This document shows, one piece after another, positions 6,930 through 50,826 of a stretch of DNA of 64,000 bases; the first letter of the stretch is position 1, and every line of letters starts with the position of its first letter. This stretch comes from Longispora fulva (GTDB taxonomy: Bacteria > Actinomycetota > Actinomycetes > Mycobacteriales > Micromonosporaceae). The notes below the pieces were generated by a model that was not told the origin of the DNA, did not search any database, and was given only the letters and a program-made list of their open reading frames with translations. The DNA lies in NCBI RefSeq assembly GCF_015751905.1, contig NZ_JADOUF010000001.1:4774001-4838000 (forward strand), in the 5' to 3' direction. A program made the translations under genes and the position numbers.

Positions 6930-7859
6930 TCAGACAGTCAGGATCCGACGTGTTTCGTCCACGTCTGCCTGGATTTGGGCGACGAGAGGGTCCAGGGAGT
7001 CGTATTTGATCATCCCGCGGAGTCGGTGCACGAACTCGAGCGAGATCCGCTCCCCGTACAGGTCCCCTTCGAAGTCCAGGACGAACGCCTCGATCCGCCG
7101 GTCCACGCCCGCGAACGTCGGATTCGTCCCGACGCTGATCGCGGCCGGCCGGCGGTGGCCGTGCTCCGTCAGCCAGCCCGCGTAGATCCCGTCGGCCGGG
7201 ACAGCGGCGTGCGGGGTGCTCACCGCGAGGTTCGCCGTGGGAAAGCCCAGCTCACGGCCCCGCTGATCGCCGCGCACCACGATGCCGTCGAGCCGGTGCG
7301 GCCGACCCAGCGCCGCGGCGGCCGACCCGACCTCCCCCGCGTCGATCTGACTGCGGATGTACGTCGAGCTGAACACCGTGCCGTCGTCGTTGACCAGCGG
7401 CGCCGGCTCGACCCCGAACCCGAACGTCTTCCCGAGCGCCTGGAGCAGCGGCACGTCGCCGGAGGCCCGGTGCCCGAACCGGAAGTTCTCCCCCACCACG
7501 ACCAGCGCGGCGTGCAGGTGCTCCACGAGCACGTCGTGCACGAACGTCTCCGGCGACAACCGGCTGAACTCACTGGTGAACGGGATCACACACAGCACGT
7601 CGACGCCCAGCGCCTCGATCAGCTCGGCCTTGCGCTCCGGGCCGGTCAGCACGGCCGGGTGGCTGCCGGGGCGGACCACCTCGCTCGGGTGCGGGTCGAA
7701 CGTGACGACGACGGAGGAGACGCCCAGCTCGGCGGCCCGTTTGACGGTGTGGCCGATGGTGGCCTGGTGGCCACGGTGCACGCCGTCGAAGACCCCGATG
7801 GTGACCACGGACCGACCCCAGCCACCCGGTGCCGAACCCACTCCCCGCCAGCGCTGCAT
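6930..7859 (-). CDS. ribF: Bifunctional riboflavin kinase / FAD synthetase
   Basis: RibF makes FMN and then FAD from riboflavin and ATP. The 309-aa protein has an N-terminal nucleotidyltransferase domain ([11 protein letters not shown] and then [10 protein letters not shown]) and a C-terminal riboflavin kinase domain beginning near [19 protein letters not shown] prefer the ATG at 7859, with AAAGGG 7 nt upstream, over the GTG 6 nt further out. A -10-like TAGGCT at 7885-7890 on this strand may give it its own promoter, which would be needed because the NLR gene now separates it from truB. Confidence 0.96.
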
Positions 7860-7902
7860 CTCCACACCCTTTCGTCAGCCCCGAGCCTAACCGCCCGGCC
7901 CC

Positions 7903-7924
7903 GCCGGGACTGACCGGTCCCGGC
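7903..7924. other. Short inverted repeat between divergent ribF and NLR gene
   Basis: GCCGGGAC (7903-7910) and GTCCCGGC (7917-7924) form a perfect 8-bp inverted repeat around a 6-nt loop. It lies in the roughly 130-bp divergent promoter region shared by ribF and the NACHT gene. It could be an operator or a transcribed hairpin; I cannot tell which. Confidence 0.4.
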
Positions 7925-7989
7925 AGGTGATCAAGGAGTGGATGTCCGAAGTGGGCGATCGAGGGGTCGGACTGGCAAGGTGTATCGAC

Positions 7990-10900
7990 ATGAGCGGTTT
8001 GGCGACGGCCACCCTGGTACTCGGCACGGCGGTGGCGAAGACGGCGTTGAGCGTCTGGTTCCGCGACGCGAAGATCCTGGAGAGCCTCTCGCACGAACTC
8101 GTGGACGAACAGGCCGGGATCCTCCGTGGTCTGCGGGAGCGCCGACAGTTCCGCCGCTTCCGCGAACAGGCGGCCGAGCAGGTGGACGACCGGATCCGCC
8201 GGTTCGTCGAGCACGAGTTCCCCGGGCTGGACGAGTCCGAACGCCTGGCTGCCGTCGCGGCGGTCACGGAGACCTTCGACCGGGCGGCGCCCACCGAGGC
8301 CGACCTGTTCCGCGCCGACCTGGACGCGAGTTCGGTCTACCGGCACCTGCTGCCCGTCCCCGAACCGACCCGCTGGGGCCTCGGCGCGGACGGGACGGCC
8401 TTCTACCGGCTCCTCCTGCGCGAGTGCTGCGGCTACCTGATCGAGGTCGCCCGGACCCTGCCCGGCGGCGGGATGGCCGCGCTGGAGGAGGTGCTACGCA
8501 GGGAGACCCAGATCCTGGCGGACGTGCGCACCGCGCTGGAACGGCTGCCCGCCCGCCTGGGCGTGGAGGACTTCGAGGCCGACCACCGCCAGCAGGTCGC
8601 CCACCGCCTGGACCGGATCGAGTTCTTCGGCGCGACCCTCACCGACGAGAGCCGGCGCTACCCGCTGTCCGTGGCCTACCTGAGCCTCACGGTGTCCGGC
8701 GAGCTGCTGACCTCGGCCGTCCGGGCCCGGTCTGGCCCGGGCGGGAGGGTGCACGGGCCCGGATGGGAGGACACGGCGGCGACCGGTGCCGCCACCGCCC
8801 GGGTGGAGGCCGCCCTCGCGGCGTCCAGCCGGCTGTTCATCCGGGGACAGGCCGGGATCGGCAAGACCACGCTGCTGCACTGGATCGCGGTCCAGAGCGC
8901 CCGGAACTCCTTCCCCGCCCCGATGGCCGCGTGGCGGGACACTGTGCCGTTCTTCGTCCCACTGCGCCGCTACGCCGGCCGGGACCTGCCGGCCCCCGAG
9001 GAGTTCCTGGCCGAGACCGGCAGACACATCGCCGCCGACATGCCACCCGGCTGGGTACAGCAGCAGTTGCGCTCCGGCCGGGCGATCGTTCTGGTCGACG
9101 GCGTGGACGAGGTCGCCGAGCACCGGCGCGCGGCGGCCCGCGACTGGCTGAGCCAACTGGTCGCGGCGTTTCCCCGGGCCCGCTACGTCGTCACGTCGCG
9201 ACCCGCCGCCGTGTCGGAGAACTGGCTCGCCCGCGACGACTTCGACACCGCGGAACTCGAACCGATGACGCCGGAGGACGTGAAGGTCTTCGTGCACCGT
9301 TGGCACGAGGCGATGCGGGACGGCTGCGGCTCCGATGACGACAGGAACACTCTCACCGGGTACGAGTCGGAGCTGCTCACGGCCCTCGCCAGCCGCGCGC
9401 ACCTGCGCCGGCTGAGCGGCTACCCGCTGCTGTGCGCCCTGCTCTGCGCCCTGCACCGCGACCGCCGCGCCCAGCTCCCGGCGAGCCGGATGGAACTCTA
9501 CGACGTCGCCCTCCAGATGCTCCTCGAACGCCGCGACACCGAACGCCACATCACCGGCGACATCACCTTGTCGCGCACCCAGAAGACCCTCCTCCTCCAG
9601 GAACTCGCCTACTGGCTGATCCGCAACGGCTGGTCCGACGCCGGATTCGACGAGGCGGCCGACCGGATCGCCGCCCGACTGGCCGGGATGCCCCAGGTGG
9701 GCGCGACCGCGCCCGAGGTGCTCCGGCACCTGCTGGAGCGCAGCGGGCTGCTCCGCGAGCCGGTCGACGGCCGGGTGGACTTCGTGCACCGCACGTTCCA
9801 GGAGTACCTGGCGGCCCAGGGCGCGGTGGCCGCCGACGACATCGGGGTCCTGATCAGCCACGCGCACCTCGACCAGTGGCGCGAGGTGGTCGTGATGGCC
9901 GCGGGACACGCCTCCACCACCCAACGCGAACGCCTGGTCACCGGCCTGCTGGACCGGGGCAGGGGCAGGTCACGGACGTCGCGGTCCCCGGTGCGCGCCA
10001 CGCTGCTCCTGTTGGCCGTGGCCTGCCTGGAGACGTCGCCGGAACTGCCGCAGGCCGTGCGCGCGCAGATCGACCAGAGTGCGGCGGAGTTGCTCCCACC
10101 GAGGACGATGACCACGGCGCAGACCCTCGCCAAACTGGGCGACGCGGCCCTGGACCTGCTGACCCTGTCGACGCCCGGGACCGCGAAGGAGGTCGCTGCG
10201 ACGATCCGCGCGGCCGGGCTGACCGGGGACCCGGCGGCGGTGGACCTGATCGCCCGCTACCGGGGCCGGCCGGAGAAGGTCGTGGTCAACGAGCTGATCC
10301 GGGCCTGGGACGCCTTCGACCCGGAGATCTACGCGCGCGACGTGCTGTCCGGCTGCCGGCCGGACGGCGACCCACTGCGCCGGCTCGATCTCCGCAACCC
10401 GGCCCTGATCCCTGGCCTGCGGCACATCCCGACCCTGGAACATCTCACGGTCGGGATTCCGAACGGCGAGACCTTCCAGGATCTCAGCTTCGTGTCGGAC
10501 CTCTCCAGGTTGGAGGCCCTGACCATGTTGGGCCTGCGCCTCGAAGACCTGCACACTCTGGAGTCGGCGAACCTGCGGATCCTCAACCTGATCTGGGACT
10601 TGGACGCTCCGGGTGACACCATCGACGCGGGGCCCCTTTCACACCTGTCCCTGAAAGTTCTCTACATCCAGAACCGTCGGCTCACGAACCTCAGATCTCT
10701 GAGCGCCAACGACGCGCTCTCCTCGCTGATGCTCACGGGGGCGGAGCCGCACGACCTGCAGGAGCTGTCCGCCGCCAAGTCATTGGAGTTCCTGTATCTC
10801 TATTCACCACGTGATCTGACCAGTGTGGAACCGCTGACATTCCTGCATGCACCGAGAGCGCTCGGCCTGCGGGACTGCCCGGAGGTGCGCGATCTCAGGA

Positions 10901-11280
10901 AGCTGGGGCGTTGGGCGGACAGTCTGGCCTCCCTGGACCTGGAGGTTCGTCCGGGCACCGACCTCGCACCGCTCGCGGCTCTTCCGCAGCTGACCCATCT
11001 GATGCTCCCCGACATCGGGAGCCACGATTTGACGCCACTCAACCAGTTCTCGGCCTTGGAAGGCCTGGAGTTCTTCGCTGTCGACGGACCCATGGACCTC
11101 AGGCGGATACCTCGATTGCCCTGTCTACGGGTAATCAAACTGTGGTGGCTCGGTGAGGTCGACGTCACTCCTCTGGCCGGTTGGCCGCAGCTCACGATCG
11201 AAGTGCCGCGCCGGGCGGTGGTGCACGGGGAGGAAGCCCTCAGCGGCGGTAGCCAGGTCAGGCGGATGCAGCGCTACTAG
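7990..11280 (+). CDS. NACHT-LRR STAND ATPase (bacterial NLR-like, candidate phage-defence protein)
   Basis: This 1096-aa protein has three parts. Residues 1 to about 270 are helical and resemble the NACHT N-terminal helical region; they begin MSGLATATLVLGTAVAKTAL. About 280-450 is a NACHT NTPase: Walker A GQAGIGKTTLLHW near 286-293, Walker B AIVLVDGVDEV near 365, then ARYVVTSRP as sensor. A helical region follows with FVHRTFQEYLAAQGA. From about 795 to the end are irregular leucine-rich repeats. Bacterial NACHT proteins of this shape are known antiphage proteins; that function here is inference, and no nuclease or other named effector domain is visible. I chose the ATG at 7990 over upstream in-frame starts because the family-like helix begins there. 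Its stop overlaps the truB stop tail to tail. The LRR part uses more AT-ending codons than the rest. Confidence 0.88.
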   Translation: MSGLATATLVLGTAVAKTALSVWFRDAKILESLSHELVDEQAGILRGLRERRQFRRFREQAAEQVDDRIRRFVEHEFPGLDESERLAAVAAVTETFDRAAPTEADLFRADLDASSVYRHLLPVPEPTRWGLGADGTAFYRLLLRECCGYLIEVARTLPGGGMAALEEVLRRETQILADVRTALERLPARLGVEDFEADHRQQVAHRLDRIEFFGATLTDESRRYPLSVAYLSLTVSGELLTSAVRARSGPGGRVHGPGWEDTAATGAATARVEAALAASSRLFIRGQAGIGKTTLLHWIAVQSARNSFPAPMAAWRDTVPFFVPLRRYAGRDLPAPEEFLAETGRHIAADMPPGWVQQQLRSGRAIVLVDGVDEVAEHRRAAARDWLSQLVAAFPRARYVVTSRPAAVSENWLARDDFDTAELEPMTPEDVKVFVHRWHEAMRDGCGSDDDRNTLTGYESELLTALASRAHLRRLSGYPLLCALLCALHRDRRAQLPASRMELYDVALQMLLERRDTERHITGDITLSRTQKTLLLQELAYWLIRNGWSDAGFDEAADRIAARLAGMPQVGATAPEVLRHLLERSGLLREPVDGRVDFVHRTFQEYLAAQGAVAADDIGVLISHAHLDQWREVVVMAAGHASTTQRERLVTGLLDRGRGRSRTSRSPVRATLLLLAVACLETSPELPQAVRAQIDQSAAELLPPRTMTTAQTLAKLGDAALDLLTLSTPGTAKEVAATIRAAGLTGDPAAVDLIARYRGRPEKVVVNELIRAWDAFDPEIYARDVLSGCRPDGDPLRRLDLRNPALIPGLRHIPTLEHLTVGIPNGETFQDLSFVSDLSRLEALTMLGLRLEDLHTLESANLRILNLIWDLDAPGDTIDAGPLSHLSLKVLYIQNRRLTNLRSLSANDALSSLMLTGAEPHDLQELSAAKSLEFLYLYSPRDLTSVEPLTFLHAPRALGLRDCPEVRDLRKLGRWADSLASLDLEVRPGTDLAPLAALPQLTHLMLPDIGSHDLTPLNQFSALEGLEFFAVDGPMDLRRIPRLPCLRVIKLWWLGEVDVTPLAGWPQLTIEVPRRAVVHGEEALSGGSQVRRMQRY

Positions 11281-12155
11281 GCCGGGGCCAGGACCAGTTC
11301 CGGCTTCGCGCGGCCGGCCTTCTCCACCATGACGGCGAGCACGTCACCGCTCGGGCCGTAGACCGCGTACGGGACCTCGATGCCGACCGGGGACAGCGGC
11401 CCGCCGTGGGAGATCACCTTGGCCTCGGCCTCGTCGAGGTCGCGGCGGGGGAACAGCCGCTCGGCGGCCGTGTTCAGGTCCAGGTTCACCGGGTCGTCGA
11501 GTTCCGCCAGCTCGTCGAGGGTGCGCGCCTCGGCCAGCGTGAAGCCGCCGACGGCGGTCCGGCGCAGCGCGGTCAGGTGGCCGCCGACCCCGGTCAGGGC
11601 CCCCAGGTCGCGGGCGATCGCCCGGATGTAGGTGCCGGACGAGCACTCGACGGACACGTCGACGTCCACCAGCCCCGGGGACCGGCGGATCTCGCCCACG
11701 TCGAGGCGGTGGATCGTGATGGGGCGGGCGGGGAGGTCGACGGATTCGCCGGCGCGTACCCGGGAATAGGATCTGACGCCCTTGATCTTGATCGCGCTGA
11801 CCGAGCTGGGCACCTGGTCGATCAGGCCGACCATCGTCGCGAGGCCCGCGCGGACCGCCTCGTCGGACACGTCGTCGGCCGGCACCGCGGTGACCAGCTC
11901 GCCCTCGGCGTCGTCGGTGATCGTGGACTGGCCGAGCCGGATCGTGCCGGTGTAGCCCTTGCGGCTGCCGATCACGTAGGTGAGCAGCTTCGTGCCGCGT
12001 TCCACGCCGAGGACCAGGACCCCGGTGGCCATCGGGTCCAGGGTGCCGCCGTGGCCCACCCGTCGGGTCCGCGCGAGGCGGCGCATGCGCGCCACCACGT
12101 CGTGGGAGGTCATCCCCGCCGGCTTGTCCACGATCACTAGCCCTGTCGTCGCCAC
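11277..12155 (-). CDS. truB: tRNA pseudouridine(55) synthase
   Basis: TruB isomerises U55 in the T-loop of tRNAs. The 292-aa protein contains KPAGMTSHDVV and the catalytic block GGTLDPMATGVLVLG, with the nucleophilic aspartate near residue 40, and later SSGTYIRAIARDLG. I chose the GTG at 12155 because the protein then begins VATTGLVIVDKPAG like its relatives; an open frame reaches 12218. It should lie next to ribF in the ancestral operon but is separated from it by the inserted NLR gene, with which it shares a CTAG at the stop codons. Confidence 0.96.
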   Translation of the reverse strand: MATTGLVIVDKPAGMTSHDVVARMRRLARTRRVGHGGTLDPMATGVLVLGVERGTKLLTYVIGSRKGYTGTIRLGQSTITDDAEGELVTAVPADDVSDEAVRAGLATMVGLIDQVPSSVSAIKIKGVRSYSRVRAGESVDLPARPITIHRLDVGEIRRSPGLVDVDVSVECSSGTYIRAIARDLGALTGVGGHLTALRRTAVGGFTLAEARTLDELAELDDPVNLDLNTAAERLFPRRDLDEAEAKVISHGGPLSPVGIEVPYAVYGPSGDVLAVMVEKAGRAKPELVLAPA

Positions 12156-12250
12156 AGGGGAAGCCTTCCAGACGCGGCCGGGCGGGTCGTGCGGGGGCTC
12201 GGCGCACCTGGCCGCCACCTGAATCGGGCCTATCCGGTCACTCCGTTTCC

Positions 12251-12653: not shown

Positions 12654-13202
12654 GTGAAGAGAATCGCCCAGCTGGCCGTCGCCGGCGTCGGAATCGCCCT
12701 CACCCTGACCGCGTGCGCCACGCAGGGCGGCCACGACGTCGCTGGCCCGGTGCCCACCAGCACCTCCACGGCACCCCGGCCCCCGGCCAGCGACGCCGCC
12801 CACCCGACCACGTCGGCCCCCGCCGGGGGCGCCCCCCTCGCCACGTCGGCCCCCACCACATCGGCCCCCGCCGGCGGCGCTCCCCTCGCCACGCCGCCAC
12901 CGGCCGCCGCCGTCGGCTCCGCCGGCTGCCCGGTCACGGCCGAGACGCTGCTGACCGCCCTGAAGTCAGACGACGCCCGATTCATCCAGGCCGGCAGACC
13001 AGCCGCGCTGGAAGGAGTCGTCTGCCACAGCGCCTTCGCCGTCGTCCACTCCGCACCCGACGGAGTCCACCAACCCCCCAAGACGCTCTTCGGCTACAGC
13101 GACGCCGCCGGAGCCTGGAAGCCCCTCGTCGTCAGCGGCGGCATCCACTTCTGCCGCGACTACGTGACCGACGACATCGCACAGCACCTCCCCAACTGCT
13201 GA
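12654..13202 (+). CDS. Lipoprotein of unknown function
   Basis: This 182-aa protein starts at a GTG with AGGA 6 nt upstream. It has a short signal peptide ending in the lipobox LTLTAC (cysteine near residue 20). Next comes a low-complexity linker of about 50 residues (Thr, Ser, Pro, Ala) in which an SAPAGGAPLAT-type unit is repeated. The globular C-terminal region (GCPVTAETLLTALKSDDARF to HFCRDYVTDDIAQHLPNC) has four cysteines that could pair outside the cell. I do not recognise the domain. It sits 26 nt before the CHAP protein and 53 nt after the small peptide. Confidence 0.75.
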   Translation: MKRIAQLAVAGVGIALTLTACATQGGHDVAGPVPTSTSTAPRPPASDAAHPTTSAPAGGAPLATSAPTTSAPAGGAPLATPPPAAAVGSAGCPVTAETLLTALKSDDARFIQAGRPAALEGVVCHSAFAVVHSAPDGVHQPPKTLFGYSDAAGAWKPLVVSGGIHFCRDYVTDDIAQHLPNC

Positions 13203-13228
13203 CCGCCCCTACCCCAAGGACACCCCTC

Positions 13229-14752
13229 GTGAACACCGTCATCCGCCGTGCCCTCGCCGGCCTGGTCACCACCACCGCTCTCACCGCCGGCCTCCTCGGC
13301 GCCATCACCCCCGCCCACGCCGCCACCGGCACCGACGTCGCCACCCTCGCCCGCAACAACGAGAACAAGGGCCCCTGCCAAACCAACAGCATCGGGGGTA
13401 CCGGCTTCCAGGGCCCCAACGAGAGCAGCTGCTCCGGCAACGCCTGGTGCGCGGACTTCGCCGGCTGGGCCTGGGCCAACGCCGGGGACCACTCGATCGA
13501 CGTCACCGGCCTGACCCAGGGCTCCTGGACCTTCTACAACTACGGCCGGCGCCACACGGGCTCCCTGCACACCGACACCGGGTACCGGCCCCAGATCGGC
13601 GACGCCGCCGTCTACAACGTCACCTCCTACGCCGCCAACGGCGACGCCACCTACAGCGACCATGTCGGCCTCGTCACCCTCGTCAACCCCAACGGCTCCA
13701 TCGAGGTCACCAACGGCAACTTCAGCGACAAGGTCATGACCAACGCCATCCCGGCGTCCCAGGTCCCCGTCGGCAGCTACCAGTCCGCCCAGGGCAACAC
13801 GATCAGCGCCTACGTCACCCCGTCCGGACTCAGCACGCCGCCGCCCCCGCCGGTCCCGGAGTCCTTCGGCGGGAAGCTGGTGGACCTCAACGGCGACGGG
13901 AAGCCGGACGTGATCGGCCGTCTCAACGACAACCTGTACGTGTGGCTGAACACCACGACCACCCAGACCACCGTCAGCGGTGCGGTGAACCTCGGCGCGG
14001 GCTGGGCCACCATGAACTCGTTGATGGTGGCCGACTTCAACGGCGACGGGAAGCCGGACGTCCTCGCCCGGCAGAACGACCACCTGTACGTCTGGCTGAA
14101 CACCTCCACGGCCGGCCAGCCCTCCGTGGCCGGTGCCACCGATCTCGGCACGGGCTGGACGAGTGAGAACTCCCTCATGGCGGCGGACTTCAACGGCGAC
14201 GGCAAAGCCGACATCATCGCCCGCCTCGCCGACAACCTCTACGCCTGGACCAGCAACGGCACCGGCCTGAGCACCCCCACCAACCTCGGCAACGGCTGGA
14301 CCGGCGAGAACTCCCTCATGGCCGCCGACTTCAACGGCGACGGCAAAGCCGACATCATCGCCCGCCTCGCCGACAACCTCTACGCCTGGACCAGCAACGG
14401 CACCGGCCTGAGCACCCCCACCAACCTCGGCAACGGCTGGACCGGCGAGAACTCCCTCATGGCCGCCGACTTCAACGGCGACGGCAAAGCCGACATCATC
14501 GCCCGCCTCGCCGACAACCTCTACATCTGGACCAGCAACGGCACCGGCCTGAGCACCCCCACCAACCTCGGCAACGGCTGGACGACGATGAACGCCCTGA
14601 TGACCGGCGACTTCAACAACGACGGCAAGCTCGACGTCCTGGCCCGGCAGAACGACAACCTCTACGTCTGGAAGTCCACGGGCACCAGCCTGGGCGGCGC
14701 CAACAACCTCGGCAACGGCTGGACGACCATCACCTTCGTCACGAAGGCGTAG
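13229..14752 (+). CDS. Secreted CHAP-like amidase with C-terminal FG-GAP/VCBS repeats
   Basis: This 507-aa protein has a signal peptide (cleavage after AHA, residue 31). A CHAP-like cysteine peptidase/amidase domain covers about 50-180, with Cys74 in AWCADFAGW and His144 in SDHVGLV as the probable catalytic pair. From about residue 210 come six to seven FG-GAP repeats, each with a DxNGDGKxD calcium-binding-like loop. CHAP domains usually cut peptidoglycan stem or cross-bridge peptides; the beta-propeller-type repeats may bind carbohydrate or cell wall. The start is GTG with AAGGA upstream. Three of the repeats are almost identical at DNA level, a sign of recent duplication. Confidence 0.85.
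   Translation: MNTVIRRALAGLVTTTALTAGLLGAITPAHAATGTDVATLARNNENKGPCQTNSIGGTGFQGPNESSCSGNAWCADFAGWAWANAGDHSIDVTGLTQGSWTFYNYGRRHTGSLHTDTGYRPQIGDAAVYNVTSYAANGDATYSDHVGLVTLVNPNGSIEVTNGNFSDKVMTNAIPASQVPVGSYQSAQGNTISAYVTPSGLSTPPPPPVPESFGGKLVDLNGDGKPDVIGRLNDNLYVWLNTTTTQTTVSGAVNLGAGWATMNSLMVADFNGDGKPDVLARQNDHLYVWLNTSTAGQPSVAGATDLGTGWTSENSLMAADFNGDGKADIIARLADNLYAWTSNGTGLSTPTNLGNGWTGENSLMAADFNGDGKADIIARLADNLYAWTSNGTGLSTPTNLGNGWTGENSLMAADFNGDGKADIIARLADNLYIWTSNGTGLSTPTNLGNGWTTMNALMTGDFNNDGKLDVLARQNDNLYVWKSTGTSLGGANNLGNGWTTITFVTKA
14177..14599 (+). repeat. Three 141-bp tandem repeats inside the FG-GAP region
   Basis: Units start at 14177, 14318 and 14459, exactly 141 bp (47 codons) apart. They are nearly identical in sequence, with an Ala to Ile change at the YAWTS position of the third. 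A diverged fourth unit starts at 14600. Each unit codes for one FG-GAP motif. Confidence 0.9.
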
Positions 14753-48468: not shown

Positions 48469-50826
48469 TCAGCCGGACAGTGCCAGGGTCAGTGGGAGGA
48501 CCGCCGGGGCGCCGGCCTGGCGGAGGGCGCGGGAGGCGACCGTCAGGGTCCAGCCCGAGTCGACGTAGTCGTCCACCAGCAGCACCGGGCCGTCGAAGCT
48601 CATCGGCGGCACCTCGAACGCCTCCCAGACCGCGCCGAGCCGGTGTGCGCTGTTCGCGTCGGCGTAGGCCCCCGGCGGGCCGCCACCGACTCGGGTCAGG
48701 TCGCCCAGGTCGGTGAGTCTGCCGACGGTCGCCAGCCGGCGGGCCAGGGTGGAGACGAGCTGCGGGCGGGTCCGGGACGGGATCGCGACCACGGACGTCG
48801 GGCGCTGCGACCAGCCCCAGGACTTCAGGACGTCGATCACGGCCGCGAACACGTCGTCGGGCACCGGGCCGTCCACGCGGGTCAGCTCGCGGAGTCGTGG
48901 GCCCCAGCCGAGGTCGGACAGCCGGCCCACGGCGCGGCCGGACGCCGCCAGTTCCCCCGCGGGGATCTTGCCCTTGGCCGCGGCGCCGGTCGGCCACAGT
49001 TTGCGGGGCTCCAGTTCGACCCCGGGCTTGCCGAGGAACGCGCGGGCCCGGTCGCGGGAGGCCGCGGTGATGTCGAGCGGGTACCACGCACCGGCGCAAC
49101 CATCGCATCGACCGCACGGCCGCGCGCCGGGGTCGTCGAGTTGCCGGCGGAGGAACTCCATCCGACACGCCCCACCGGCTCCGGACCGGCGCTCGTCGGA
49201 CACGGGGAGGGCGGTGTAGTCGCGCATCGCCTGTTGTTCGGACTCGCGGGCGGCGGTCACCCGGGCGTAGCGCTCAGCGTCGTAGCTCCATGGCTCGCCC
49301 GTGCCGACCCAGCCGCCCTTGACCCGGCGGACCGCGCCGTCGACGTCGAGCACCTTGAGGAGCAGCTCCAGTCTGGTCCGGCGCAGCTCCGTGCGGGCTT
49401 CGAGGGCCTGGGTGGACAGCGGACTGCCGCCGAGGGCTGCGAGCACGGCGGCCACCTGGTCGGCGGCGGGGAAGGCTACCGAGGCGAAGTACCGCCAGAT
49501 GGCCTCGTCCTCGCGGCCCGGCAACAGGAGCACGTCGGCGTGCTCCACGGCGCGGCCGGCCCGGCCGACCTGCTGGTAGTAGGAGATCGGGGAACTCGGC
49601 GCGCCCAGGTGCACGACGAACCCGAGGTCGGGCTTGTCGTATCCCATGCCCAGGGCGGACGTGGCGACGAGGGCCTTGACCTTGTTGCGGAGCAGCGCCT
49701 CCTCGGCGGCCAGCCGCTCGGCCTGGTCGGTCTTGCCCGAGTACGCCGCGACCTCGTAGCCGCAGGAGCGCAGGTAGGCCGAGACCTCCTCGGTGGCGGC
49801 GACGGTCAGCGTGTACACGATGCCGGAGCCGGGCAGGTCGGCCAGGTGTTCGCCGAGCCAGGCGAGCCGTTCGGCGGCGTCGGTCAGCCGGAGCACGCCG
49901 AGGCGCAGGGACTCGCGGTCCAGCGGGCCGCGCAGCACGAGCGTGCCCAGCGGCTCTCCGACCGGGGGTCGCTGCGGATCGGGCAGCGCCACGGCATCCG
50001 ACACCTGCGCCGATCGAGCCGAGGCGGGTAACGCCTGCGCCGATCCTGCCGAAGCGGGCGGCGACGGCTCGGGCCAGTTCTCCTCGGCCTCGTCCCACAG
50101 GTCGGGTTGCTGGCTGGCCCAGGATTCCTCCCACTCGTCCGCCGGGGCGGCACCCGGCGCTGGACGTGACGCGCTCCGCGACGGGGCTGCGCCCGGCACC
50201 GGACCGGAAGCTCCCGGGGGTGGGGCGTGTTCCGCGAGTTGCTCGGCCACGTCGGCCGTTACCCGTTCGTTGGCAGTGGCCGTGGTCGCCAGGACCGGCA
50301 CGCCGGGCCGCAGGCCGGCGAGGAACGTGCGGATCCGCCGGTAGTCGGGGCGGAAGTCGTGGCCCCAGTCGGAGACGCAGTGCGCCTCGTCGATGACGAG
50401 CATGCCGCAGGAGCCGGCGAGGACCGGCAGCACCCGGTCGCGGAAGTCGGGGTTGTTCAGCCGCTCGGGGCTGACCAGCAGCACGTCGACCGTCCCGGCG
50501 AGGATGTCGGCCTCGATGGCCGACCAGTCGTCGAGGTTCGCCGAGTTGATCGTGGCGGCGCGGATGCCGGCCGAGGCCGCCGCGTCGACCTGGTTGCGCA
50601 TCAGGGCGAGCAGCGGGGAGACGATCACGGTCGGGCCCGCGCCCTGCTCGCGGAGCAGCGCGGTGGCCACGAAGTAGACGGCGGACTTGCCGAAGCCGGT
50701 GCGCTGGACGAGGAGCACCCGGCGGCGGTCGGCGACCAGGGCCTCGATGGCGGTCCACTGGTCGTCGCGGAGGACGGCCTTCGGGCCGGCCAGGCGGCGC
50801 AGCAGCTCCTCGGCGCGGGCCCTCAT
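48469..50826 (-). CDS. RecQ-family DNA helicase fused to a phosphoribosyltransferase-like domain
   Basis: This 785-aa protein has helicase motif I (VLLVQRTGFGKSAVYF), Ia (VIVSPLLALMRNQVD), II (LVIDEAHCVSDWGHDFRPDY), III (VLATTATAN) and VI (QVGRAGRAVEHADV). It also has a zinc-binding region (CRMEFLRRQL..CGRCDGC). Unusually, a disordered Ala/Pro/Glu/Trp-rich insert of about 90 residues splits motifs III and IV. The C-terminal region has VVAIPSRTRPQL and the PRPP loop VLLVDDYVDSGWTLTVA, typical of PRTase-fold proteins. The helicase probably acts in recombination or repair; the PRTase-like part may bind nucleotides. It overlaps the upstream split-barrel gene by ATGA. Confidence 0.92.
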   Translation of the reverse strand: MRARAEELLRRLAGPKAVLRDDQWTAIEALVADRRRVLLVQRTGFGKSAVYFVATALLREQGAGPTVIVSPLLALMRNQVDAAASAGIRAATINSANLDDWSAIEADILAGTVDVLLVSPERLNNPDFRDRVLPVLAGSCGMLVIDEAHCVSDWGHDFRPDYRRIRTFLAGLRPGVPVLATTATANERVTADVAEQLAEHAPPPGASGPVPGAAPSRSASRPAPGAAPADEWEESWASQQPDLWDEAEENWPEPSPPASAGSAQALPASARSAQVSDAVALPDPQRPPVGEPLGTLVLRGPLDRESLRLGVLRLTDAAERLAWLGEHLADLPGSGIVYTLTVAATEEVSAYLRSCGYEVAAYSGKTDQAERLAAEEALLRNKVKALVATSALGMGYDKPDLGFVVHLGAPSSPISYYQQVGRAGRAVEHADVLLLPGREDEAIWRYFASVAFPAADQVAAVLAALGGSPLSTQALEARTELRRTRLELLLKVLDVDGAVRRVKGGWVGTGEPWSYDAERYARVTAARESEQQAMRDYTALPVSDERRSGAGGACRMEFLRRQLDDPGARPCGRCDGCAGAWYPLDITAASRDRARAFLGKPGVELEPRKLWPTGAAAKGKIPAGELAASGRAVGRLSDLGWGPRLRELTRVDGPVPDDVFAAVIDVLKSWGWSQRPTSVVAIPSRTRPQLVSTLARRLATVGRLTDLGDLTRVGGGPPGAYADANSAHRLGAVWEAFEVPPMSFDGPVLLVDDYVDSGWTLTVASRALRQAGAPAVLPLTLALSG

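Follow-up and report, generated by a model that had tools for sequence, protein, structure and literature searches.

What is a large NTPase gene doing between truB and ribF? The stretch analyzed here, called the window, comprises 64,000 nucleotides of the Longispora fulva genome (family Micromonosporaceae; contig NZ_JADOUF010000001.1, positions 4,774,001 to 4,838,000). At 7990..11280 on the + strand it contains an open reading frame (ORF) for a protein of 1,096 residues with an N-terminal NNH1 domain, a NACHT NTPase, and C-terminal leucine-rich repeats (LRRs), assigned from the ORF list, Pfam, a PDB sequence search, and an alignment. The gene sits between truB and ribF and is convergent with truB. 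Its architecture, the patchiness of its family, the broken state of some copies, and a sensor that evolves faster than the rest of the protein together suggest, as far as sequences can tell, a receptor of the immune type whose sensor changes quickly. It is reasonably likely that the gene encodes an accessory receptor of the bacterial NLR type, a STAND protein that forms a single-gene system and is most probably directed against phages or other invaders. An earlier note on this DNA had proposed a protein with the layout of immune receptors as a candidate for an uncharacterized defense system; the receptor part of this proposal is supported by the patchy family and the fast-evolving sensor, while the new kind of system and the defense locus are not.

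Domain architecture

The N-terminal part of the protein (8014..8541, residues 9 to 184; this and all the following domains on the + strand) matches NNH1, the NACHT N-terminal helical domain 1 (Pfam PF22733; E = 2.2e-41), with a score of 142.4 bits against a Pfam cutoff of 27. The NACHT NTPase (PF05729; 8830..9312, residues 281 to 441; E = 6.2e-25) scores 88.4 bits against a cutoff of 26.7 and includes a Walker A motif, GQAGIGKT (8845..8868, residues 286 to 293), and a Walker B stretch ending in DGVDE (9085..9111, residues 366 to 374). In an alignment of 59 sequences, the window protein among them, G286, A288, G289, G291, and K292 of the former and D370, G371, D373, and E374 of the latter are invariant. 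The NACHT assignment made in the earlier note is therefore correct, and a non-NACHT ATPase is excluded. Next comes the presumed helical/winged-helix part of the NACHT module (9313..9969, residues 442 to 660; borders and name are presumptive), which contains DFVHRTFQEYLAA and the invariant residues F598, H600, and F603. NNH1 and NACHT are both present in all 11 family members scanned, including the window protein.

The C-terminal LRRs occupy 10390..11259 (residues 801 to 1090), some 11 repeats, each of about 22 residues, with the count and the borders set by eye. PDB sequence searches align residues 870 to 1027 with a chain deposited as "Rab family protein" (E = 6.9e-15), which we take to be the LRR of a Roco protein, and residues 815 to 1066 with internalin A (E = 3.7e-10); all PDB LRR matches of the window protein fall within residues 796 to 1066. 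A profile of the family matches internalin with an E value of 1e-44 over profile positions 779 to 1021. It also matches the "Rab family" chain, protein phosphatase 1 regulatory subunit 7 (E = 5.9e-16; presumably Sds22) and, with a lower score, plant LRR proteins such as Roq1 (E = 2.6e-14). No Pfam LRR model matches the window protein at an E value of 1 or better; LRR_4 matched 4 of the 11 family members scanned. The predicted C-terminal LRR domain is real and, judging from these matches, is closest to internalins.

The N terminus had been described as helical and devoid of a visible effector domain. It is recognizable as the domain NNH1, a match that by itself assigns no activity; no enzyme family in Pfam matches this region. 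The N-terminal helix is conserved in the family, with Glu at position 5 in 80% of the members (Ala in the window protein), G12 in 90%, A19 in 85%, and W23 in 94%. In the window protein the first helix is the most hydrophobic 19-residue stretch. A membrane-inserting first helix was considered and rejected, since in only 11 of the 89 relatives does this helix hold the 15-residue stretch of highest hydrophobicity, and 23 of the 89 match a simple motif pattern. A pore-forming role of NNH1 thus finds no clear support.

Divergence of the sensor and conservation of the chassis

Across four groups of relatives, median identity is 63 to 86% and the ratio of nonsynonymous to synonymous substitution rates (dN/dS) is 0.19 to 0.36 in the NNH1-NACHT chassis, as against 30 to 49% and 0.54 to 0.77 in the C-terminal region. 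The C-terminal medians (0.73, 0.54, 0.77, and 0.58, in groups of 12, 5, 4, and 4 sequences) exceed those of every other domain in each group. In the Streptomyces (12 loci), Nocardiopsis (5 loci), and Amycolatopsis/Saccharothrix (4 loci) groups, the C-terminal region has a median identity of 29.5 to 33.7%, compared to 63 to 83% for the other domains. The members of these groups have neighboring genes in common, fewer in the case of the Nocardiopsis locus L189. Among four intact Phytohabitans orthologs, pairwise identity is 47 to 80% in the LRR and 81 to 91% in the NACHT part; by the Nei-Gojobori method, five Phytohabitans pairs give dN/dS values of 0.39 to 0.88 for the LRR, 0.16 to 0.25 for NACHT, and 0.10 to 0.40 for the other domains.

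Two close, nearly gapless pairs show the same contrast. The ratio of nonsynonymous to synonymous differences is 65/52 in the LRR versus 74/138 elsewhere in the first pair (P = 0.0004) and 54/47 versus 109/152 in the second (P = 0.046). Since the two agree in sign, misalignment alone does not account for the contrast. The synonymous rate dS is raised in the LRR as well (1.04 versus 0.62 to 0.72 in Streptomyces), a hint that domain exchange or saturation may have contributed in addition to point changes. Between the window protein and its nearest relative, in the sister genome G001, identity is 30% in the LRR and 50 to 72% elsewhere, but the dN/dS contrast is weak and dS is large, which speaks against treating the pattern as universal.

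Conservon-associated genes in Streptomyces

In one sample of Streptomyces, 12 of the 20 loci have the gene just after the cvnD gene of a conservon, on the same strand and at a distance of 62 to 165 bp (11 loci) or about 0.5 kb (1 locus); at a 13th locus, L209, it starts inside a cvnD gene at a contig edge. A separate draw from a genus that is presumably Streptomyces, with 14 loci from 12 of the 189 genomes, places 6 loci at a conservon. Domains were checked in one conservon. Behind the NACHT-LRR gene, L195 (4880-13003) and 11 further Streptomyces loci carry a gene that by eye resembles a carboxyltransferase.

Conservons are described, in the available parts of two papers, as regulatory systems, in some of which accessory genes follow cvnD (PMC8510531, PMC13343842). 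This location could point to a developmental or stress-signaling STAND regulator, in which the LRR would sense an internal partner or a competitor signal and the NNH1-NACHT scaffold would alter expression or morphology. We regard such a role as rather unlikely. The Streptomyces form (at an E value of 1e-150) is found in only 12 of the 189 genomes sampled from the genus and so is no constant component of the conservon. Over 66 pairs, the median identity in its C-terminal region is 34%, whereas the CvnD proteins of the 12 loci match that of L195 with 97 to 100% identity in the stretch aligned, and adjacency does not imply coregulation. A term search of the available parts of PMC8510531 and PMC13343842 finds no mention of NACHT or LRR, and no conservon is seen beside the window gene.

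Phyletic distribution

A scan of genome contigs yielded at least 534 confirmed relatives, the best 80 of which were taken forward. Among these 80, 74 come from Actinomycetota according to the record titles, many of them filamentous. In the Micromonosporaceae, 52 of 354 genomes, that of L. fulva included, have a match at an E value of 1e-90. The L. fulva genome encodes a single NNH1 match, this gene, among its 8 NACHT matches above the cutoff; NNH1 was absent from 14 control genomes. Relatives occur on 18 of 72,556 plasmid records (E value of 1e-20), there are no matches in 50,697 phage records (E value of 1e-10), and a scan of viral contigs returned one relative, with 29% identity. The NACHT-LRR family is therefore patchy, even in Streptomyces, where one address is favored.

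The abundance of relatives in filamentous bacteria and the fast evolution of the LRR among genus-level orthologs also agree with recognition of self and nonself or of competitors, that is, with a receptor that responds to proteins from related strains or from competing bacteria instead of phage. Fungal NACHT incompatibility proteins act in such self/nonself recognition. For the window gene this explanation appears very unlikely.

The truB-ribF junction

The genes truB (11277..12218, - strand) and ribF (6930..7865, - strand) were identified from the ORF list and an ortholog search; in most relatives their products match single orthologs over nearly the full length. Both were searched for in 121 genomes, and each was found in 119. 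The survey included 73 genomes of the Micromonosporaceae, 71 of them with both genes. In 46 of these 71, the junction is closed, with a truB-ribF gap of 9 to 370 bp, in line with the earlier claim that the window gene separates the two from the opposite strand. An insert of 907 to 3,978 bp is present in 18, and in 7 the genes are far apart, differently oriented, or on separate contigs. Among 48 genomes from other families of the same order, 23 have a closed junction, 23 have 477 to 10,424 bp between the genes, and in 2 the genes are unlinked.

The NACHT-LRR gene accounts for 4 of the 18 inserts (in G000, G001, and G057, and in pieces in G032). The others encode a hybrid histidine kinase (6 inserts), an amidase (4), a transporter with an ArsR-type regulator (2), or a protein without Pfam domains (2); kinds were assigned by eye and from similarity groups, and one example of each non-NACHT kind was checked with Pfam, the example of the membrane-protein kind giving no match. 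The truB-ribF junction accepts a variety of genes and is not reserved for defense: with kinases, transporters, and amidases at this place in relatives, the locus cannot be called a defense site. The hybrid histidine kinase genes, in six Micromonosporaceae genomes (L102, L106, L107, L111, L112, and L116), are likewise convergent with truB. A stand-alone receiver gene is called beside the kinase in G007, G030, G047, and G106 and is not called in G031 and G056.

The gene is not fixed at this junction in the Micromonosporaceae, yet it occupies it in both Longispora genomes examined. It is also there in all six Phytohabitans genomes examined, which include P. suffuscus and P. flavus. Two of these six copies are broken, one present only in pieces (G032) and one carrying an in-frame stop codon, TAG (G392); in addition, a second P. 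suffuscus copy is split between frames. Among the best 80 loci, only L162, L164, and L167, all from Phytohabitans, have truB and ribF beside the gene; for the other matches in Micromonosporaceae genomes, the neighbors were checked for a part.

In a TruB+RibF tree of 60 genomes, Longispora and Phytohabitans are not sister genera (support values of the forks between them not shown), and the intervening lineages carry a closed junction or some other insert. The NACHT tree separates the junction copies into two groups, between which copies from elsewhere branch. A single ancestral insertion was rejected: when the 7 junction rows are constrained to a single clade, even the best tree is worse by 86.8 log units (approximately unbiased test, P = 4e-5), in a test that used 30 of the 91 rows, with the group chosen after the first tree had been seen and bootstrap values of 88 to 96 at the key forks. 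This rejection is also compatible with an old junction copy and later transfers out of it. Because the forced single clade is rejected, the simplest reading is that the gene probably arrived twice, independently, each time at this site and in this orientation.

A passenger gene of no current benefit, which is tolerated and decays downstream of truB, would fit the two broken Phytohabitans copies and the many unrelated genes accepted by the junction, and is nonetheless highly improbable, as the window gene is intact, its NTPase motifs are invariant, and chassis dN/dS values of 0.10 to 0.40 (five Phytohabitans pairs) and 0.30 to 0.49 (window-G001) indicate purifying selection.

Comparison with known systems

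Bacterial NACHT proteins with LRRs have been named "bona fide bacterial NLRs" (PMC12169576, available part). The window protein is a NACHT-LRR protein with the C-terminal LRR that characterizes them, as the PDB matches of both the protein and the family profile show. It belongs to a kind already in print, so the description of the system as uncharacterized in kind cannot be upheld. Such LRR-type proteins are named in the literature examined, in the parts available, and none is described there by mechanism. A literature search, which did not cover Kibby et al. (2023), found no account of an NNH1-NACHT-LRR family, of truB-ribF or conservon addresses, or of LRR divergence, and no claim to a first report is made.

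The antiphage bNACHT proteins (Kibby et al. 2023, as cited in the available part of PMC12169576) are similar to the window protein in the central NACHT, a presumed C-terminal sensor, and a presumed N-terminal effector. The tested bNACHT02 and bNACHT12 have a SNaCT domain, bNACHT25 and bNACHT32 have NCH1 and a nuclease N terminus, and they are not described in that part as NNH1-NACHT-LRR proteins (PMC12169576).

The AVAST (Avs) proteins share the STAND NTPase and a C-terminal sensor. The Avs models give a short P-loop match to Avs2 only (E values of 0.071 and 0.16; 9.8 bits against a cutoff of 1,000), which leaves the protein outside this group, and the NCBIfam model of HyoA, which like EruA is an antiphage NACHT protein, scores 10.8 bits against a cutoff of 1,200.

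Animal and plant NLRs show the same order as the window protein, with a helical N terminus, a STAND NTPase, and an LRR. The LRR of plant NLRs evolves fast, and animal NLRs use another type of LRR. The window protein differs from both, with internalins and the "Rab family" chain as the best PDB matches of its LRR and NNH1 as its N terminus. Plants use NB-ARC instead of NACHT (PMC12169576, available part). The layout of animal and plant immune receptors seen in the earlier note holds for the NACHT-LRR architecture, with an LRR that by sequence is nearest to internalins; the common order may be convergent.

No defense island was identified around the gene. In the PADLOC search of the 53 window ORFs, 24 of the 25 families listed match a single RecQ-type helicase (48472-50826, - strand), and the remaining one, mad2, matches one ORF (E = 8.6e-9). 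In the 785-residue helicase, the models match two stretches and leave about 95 residues between them (about 198 to 294) unmatched.

Gene boundaries and neighboring genes

The reading frame could also start from an in-frame GTG at 7927, which would add 21 residues. The start at 7990 is preferred, because in G001 a stop codon lies 8 residues ahead of the Met that matches it. At the other end, the sequence CTAG (11277..11280) is common to the stop codons of truB (- strand) and the NACHT gene (+ strand). The divergent region of 124 bp between the starts of ribF and the NACHT gene (7866..7989, from the ORF list) presumably holds the promoters of both; a simple promoter scan found no sigma-70-like match in it. 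With the gene divergent from ribF across this gap, ribF probably requires its own promoter at the window locus.

Over the 53 window ORFs, the Pfam tally gives one ORF each for TruB_N, FAD_syn, and Flavokinase, without naming the ORFs. No tRNA was found in positions 1 to 30000, and repeats around the NACHT gene are matches of 71 to 86%, with no recognizable flanking direct repeats. In G001, a NUDIX gene (L100, 4207-4701, - strand; Pfam E = 1.8e-15) immediately precedes the NACHT-LRR gene and is read from the same strand; it has no counterpart at that position in the window. Near truB, a long ORF (12713-14752, + strand) contains several nearly identical repeat units in its C-terminal half. By eye they look like FG-GAP repeats, and FG-GAP_3 matches one of the 53 ORFs.

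Proposed function

In the receptor proposed here, the LRR (about residues 801 to 1090) would bind a variable ligand, upon which the NACHT module would exchange nucleotide and probably oligomerize. NNH1, gathered in the oligomer, might then execute or recruit a response, probably growth arrest or death. This scheme is that of the tested bNACHT proteins, and the case for phage defense is one of analogy with them (PMC12169576, available part).

Several observations weigh against an immune function. The best PADLOC match of the gene has an E value of 0.01, NCBIfam EruA scores 26.2 bits against a cutoff of 1,000, and PADLOC recognizes no defense neighborhood among the 53 window ORFs at an E value of 1e-5. 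The Streptomyces branch is linked to conservons, and the gene, once at truB-ribF, has long been kept (2 of 2 and 6 of 6 genomes of the two genera). The dN/dS contrast between the window and G001 is weak (LRR, 0.55; NNH1, 0.49; other domains, 0.30 to 0.46; dS up to 1.7), and in the G057/G389 pair the NNH1 value of 0.34 is close to the LRR value of 0.39. Relaxed constraint can also give a high dN/dS, and all pair values are below 1, so that they give no indication of positive selection.

More speculatively, the family might be a bacterial counterpart of plant resistance genes. It would then hold set addresses (after truB in two genera independently and after cvnD in Streptomyces), with a chassis that is kept, an LRR that changes within a genus under varied invaders, and NNH1 acting as a death effector of a type not yet described. 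This extension of the immune-receptor interpretation is a tentative one and on balance improbable. The family provides sets of genus-level orthologs in which the chassis is conserved and the LRR divergent, and swapping sensors among them could reveal the targets of bacterial LRRs and the role of NNH1.

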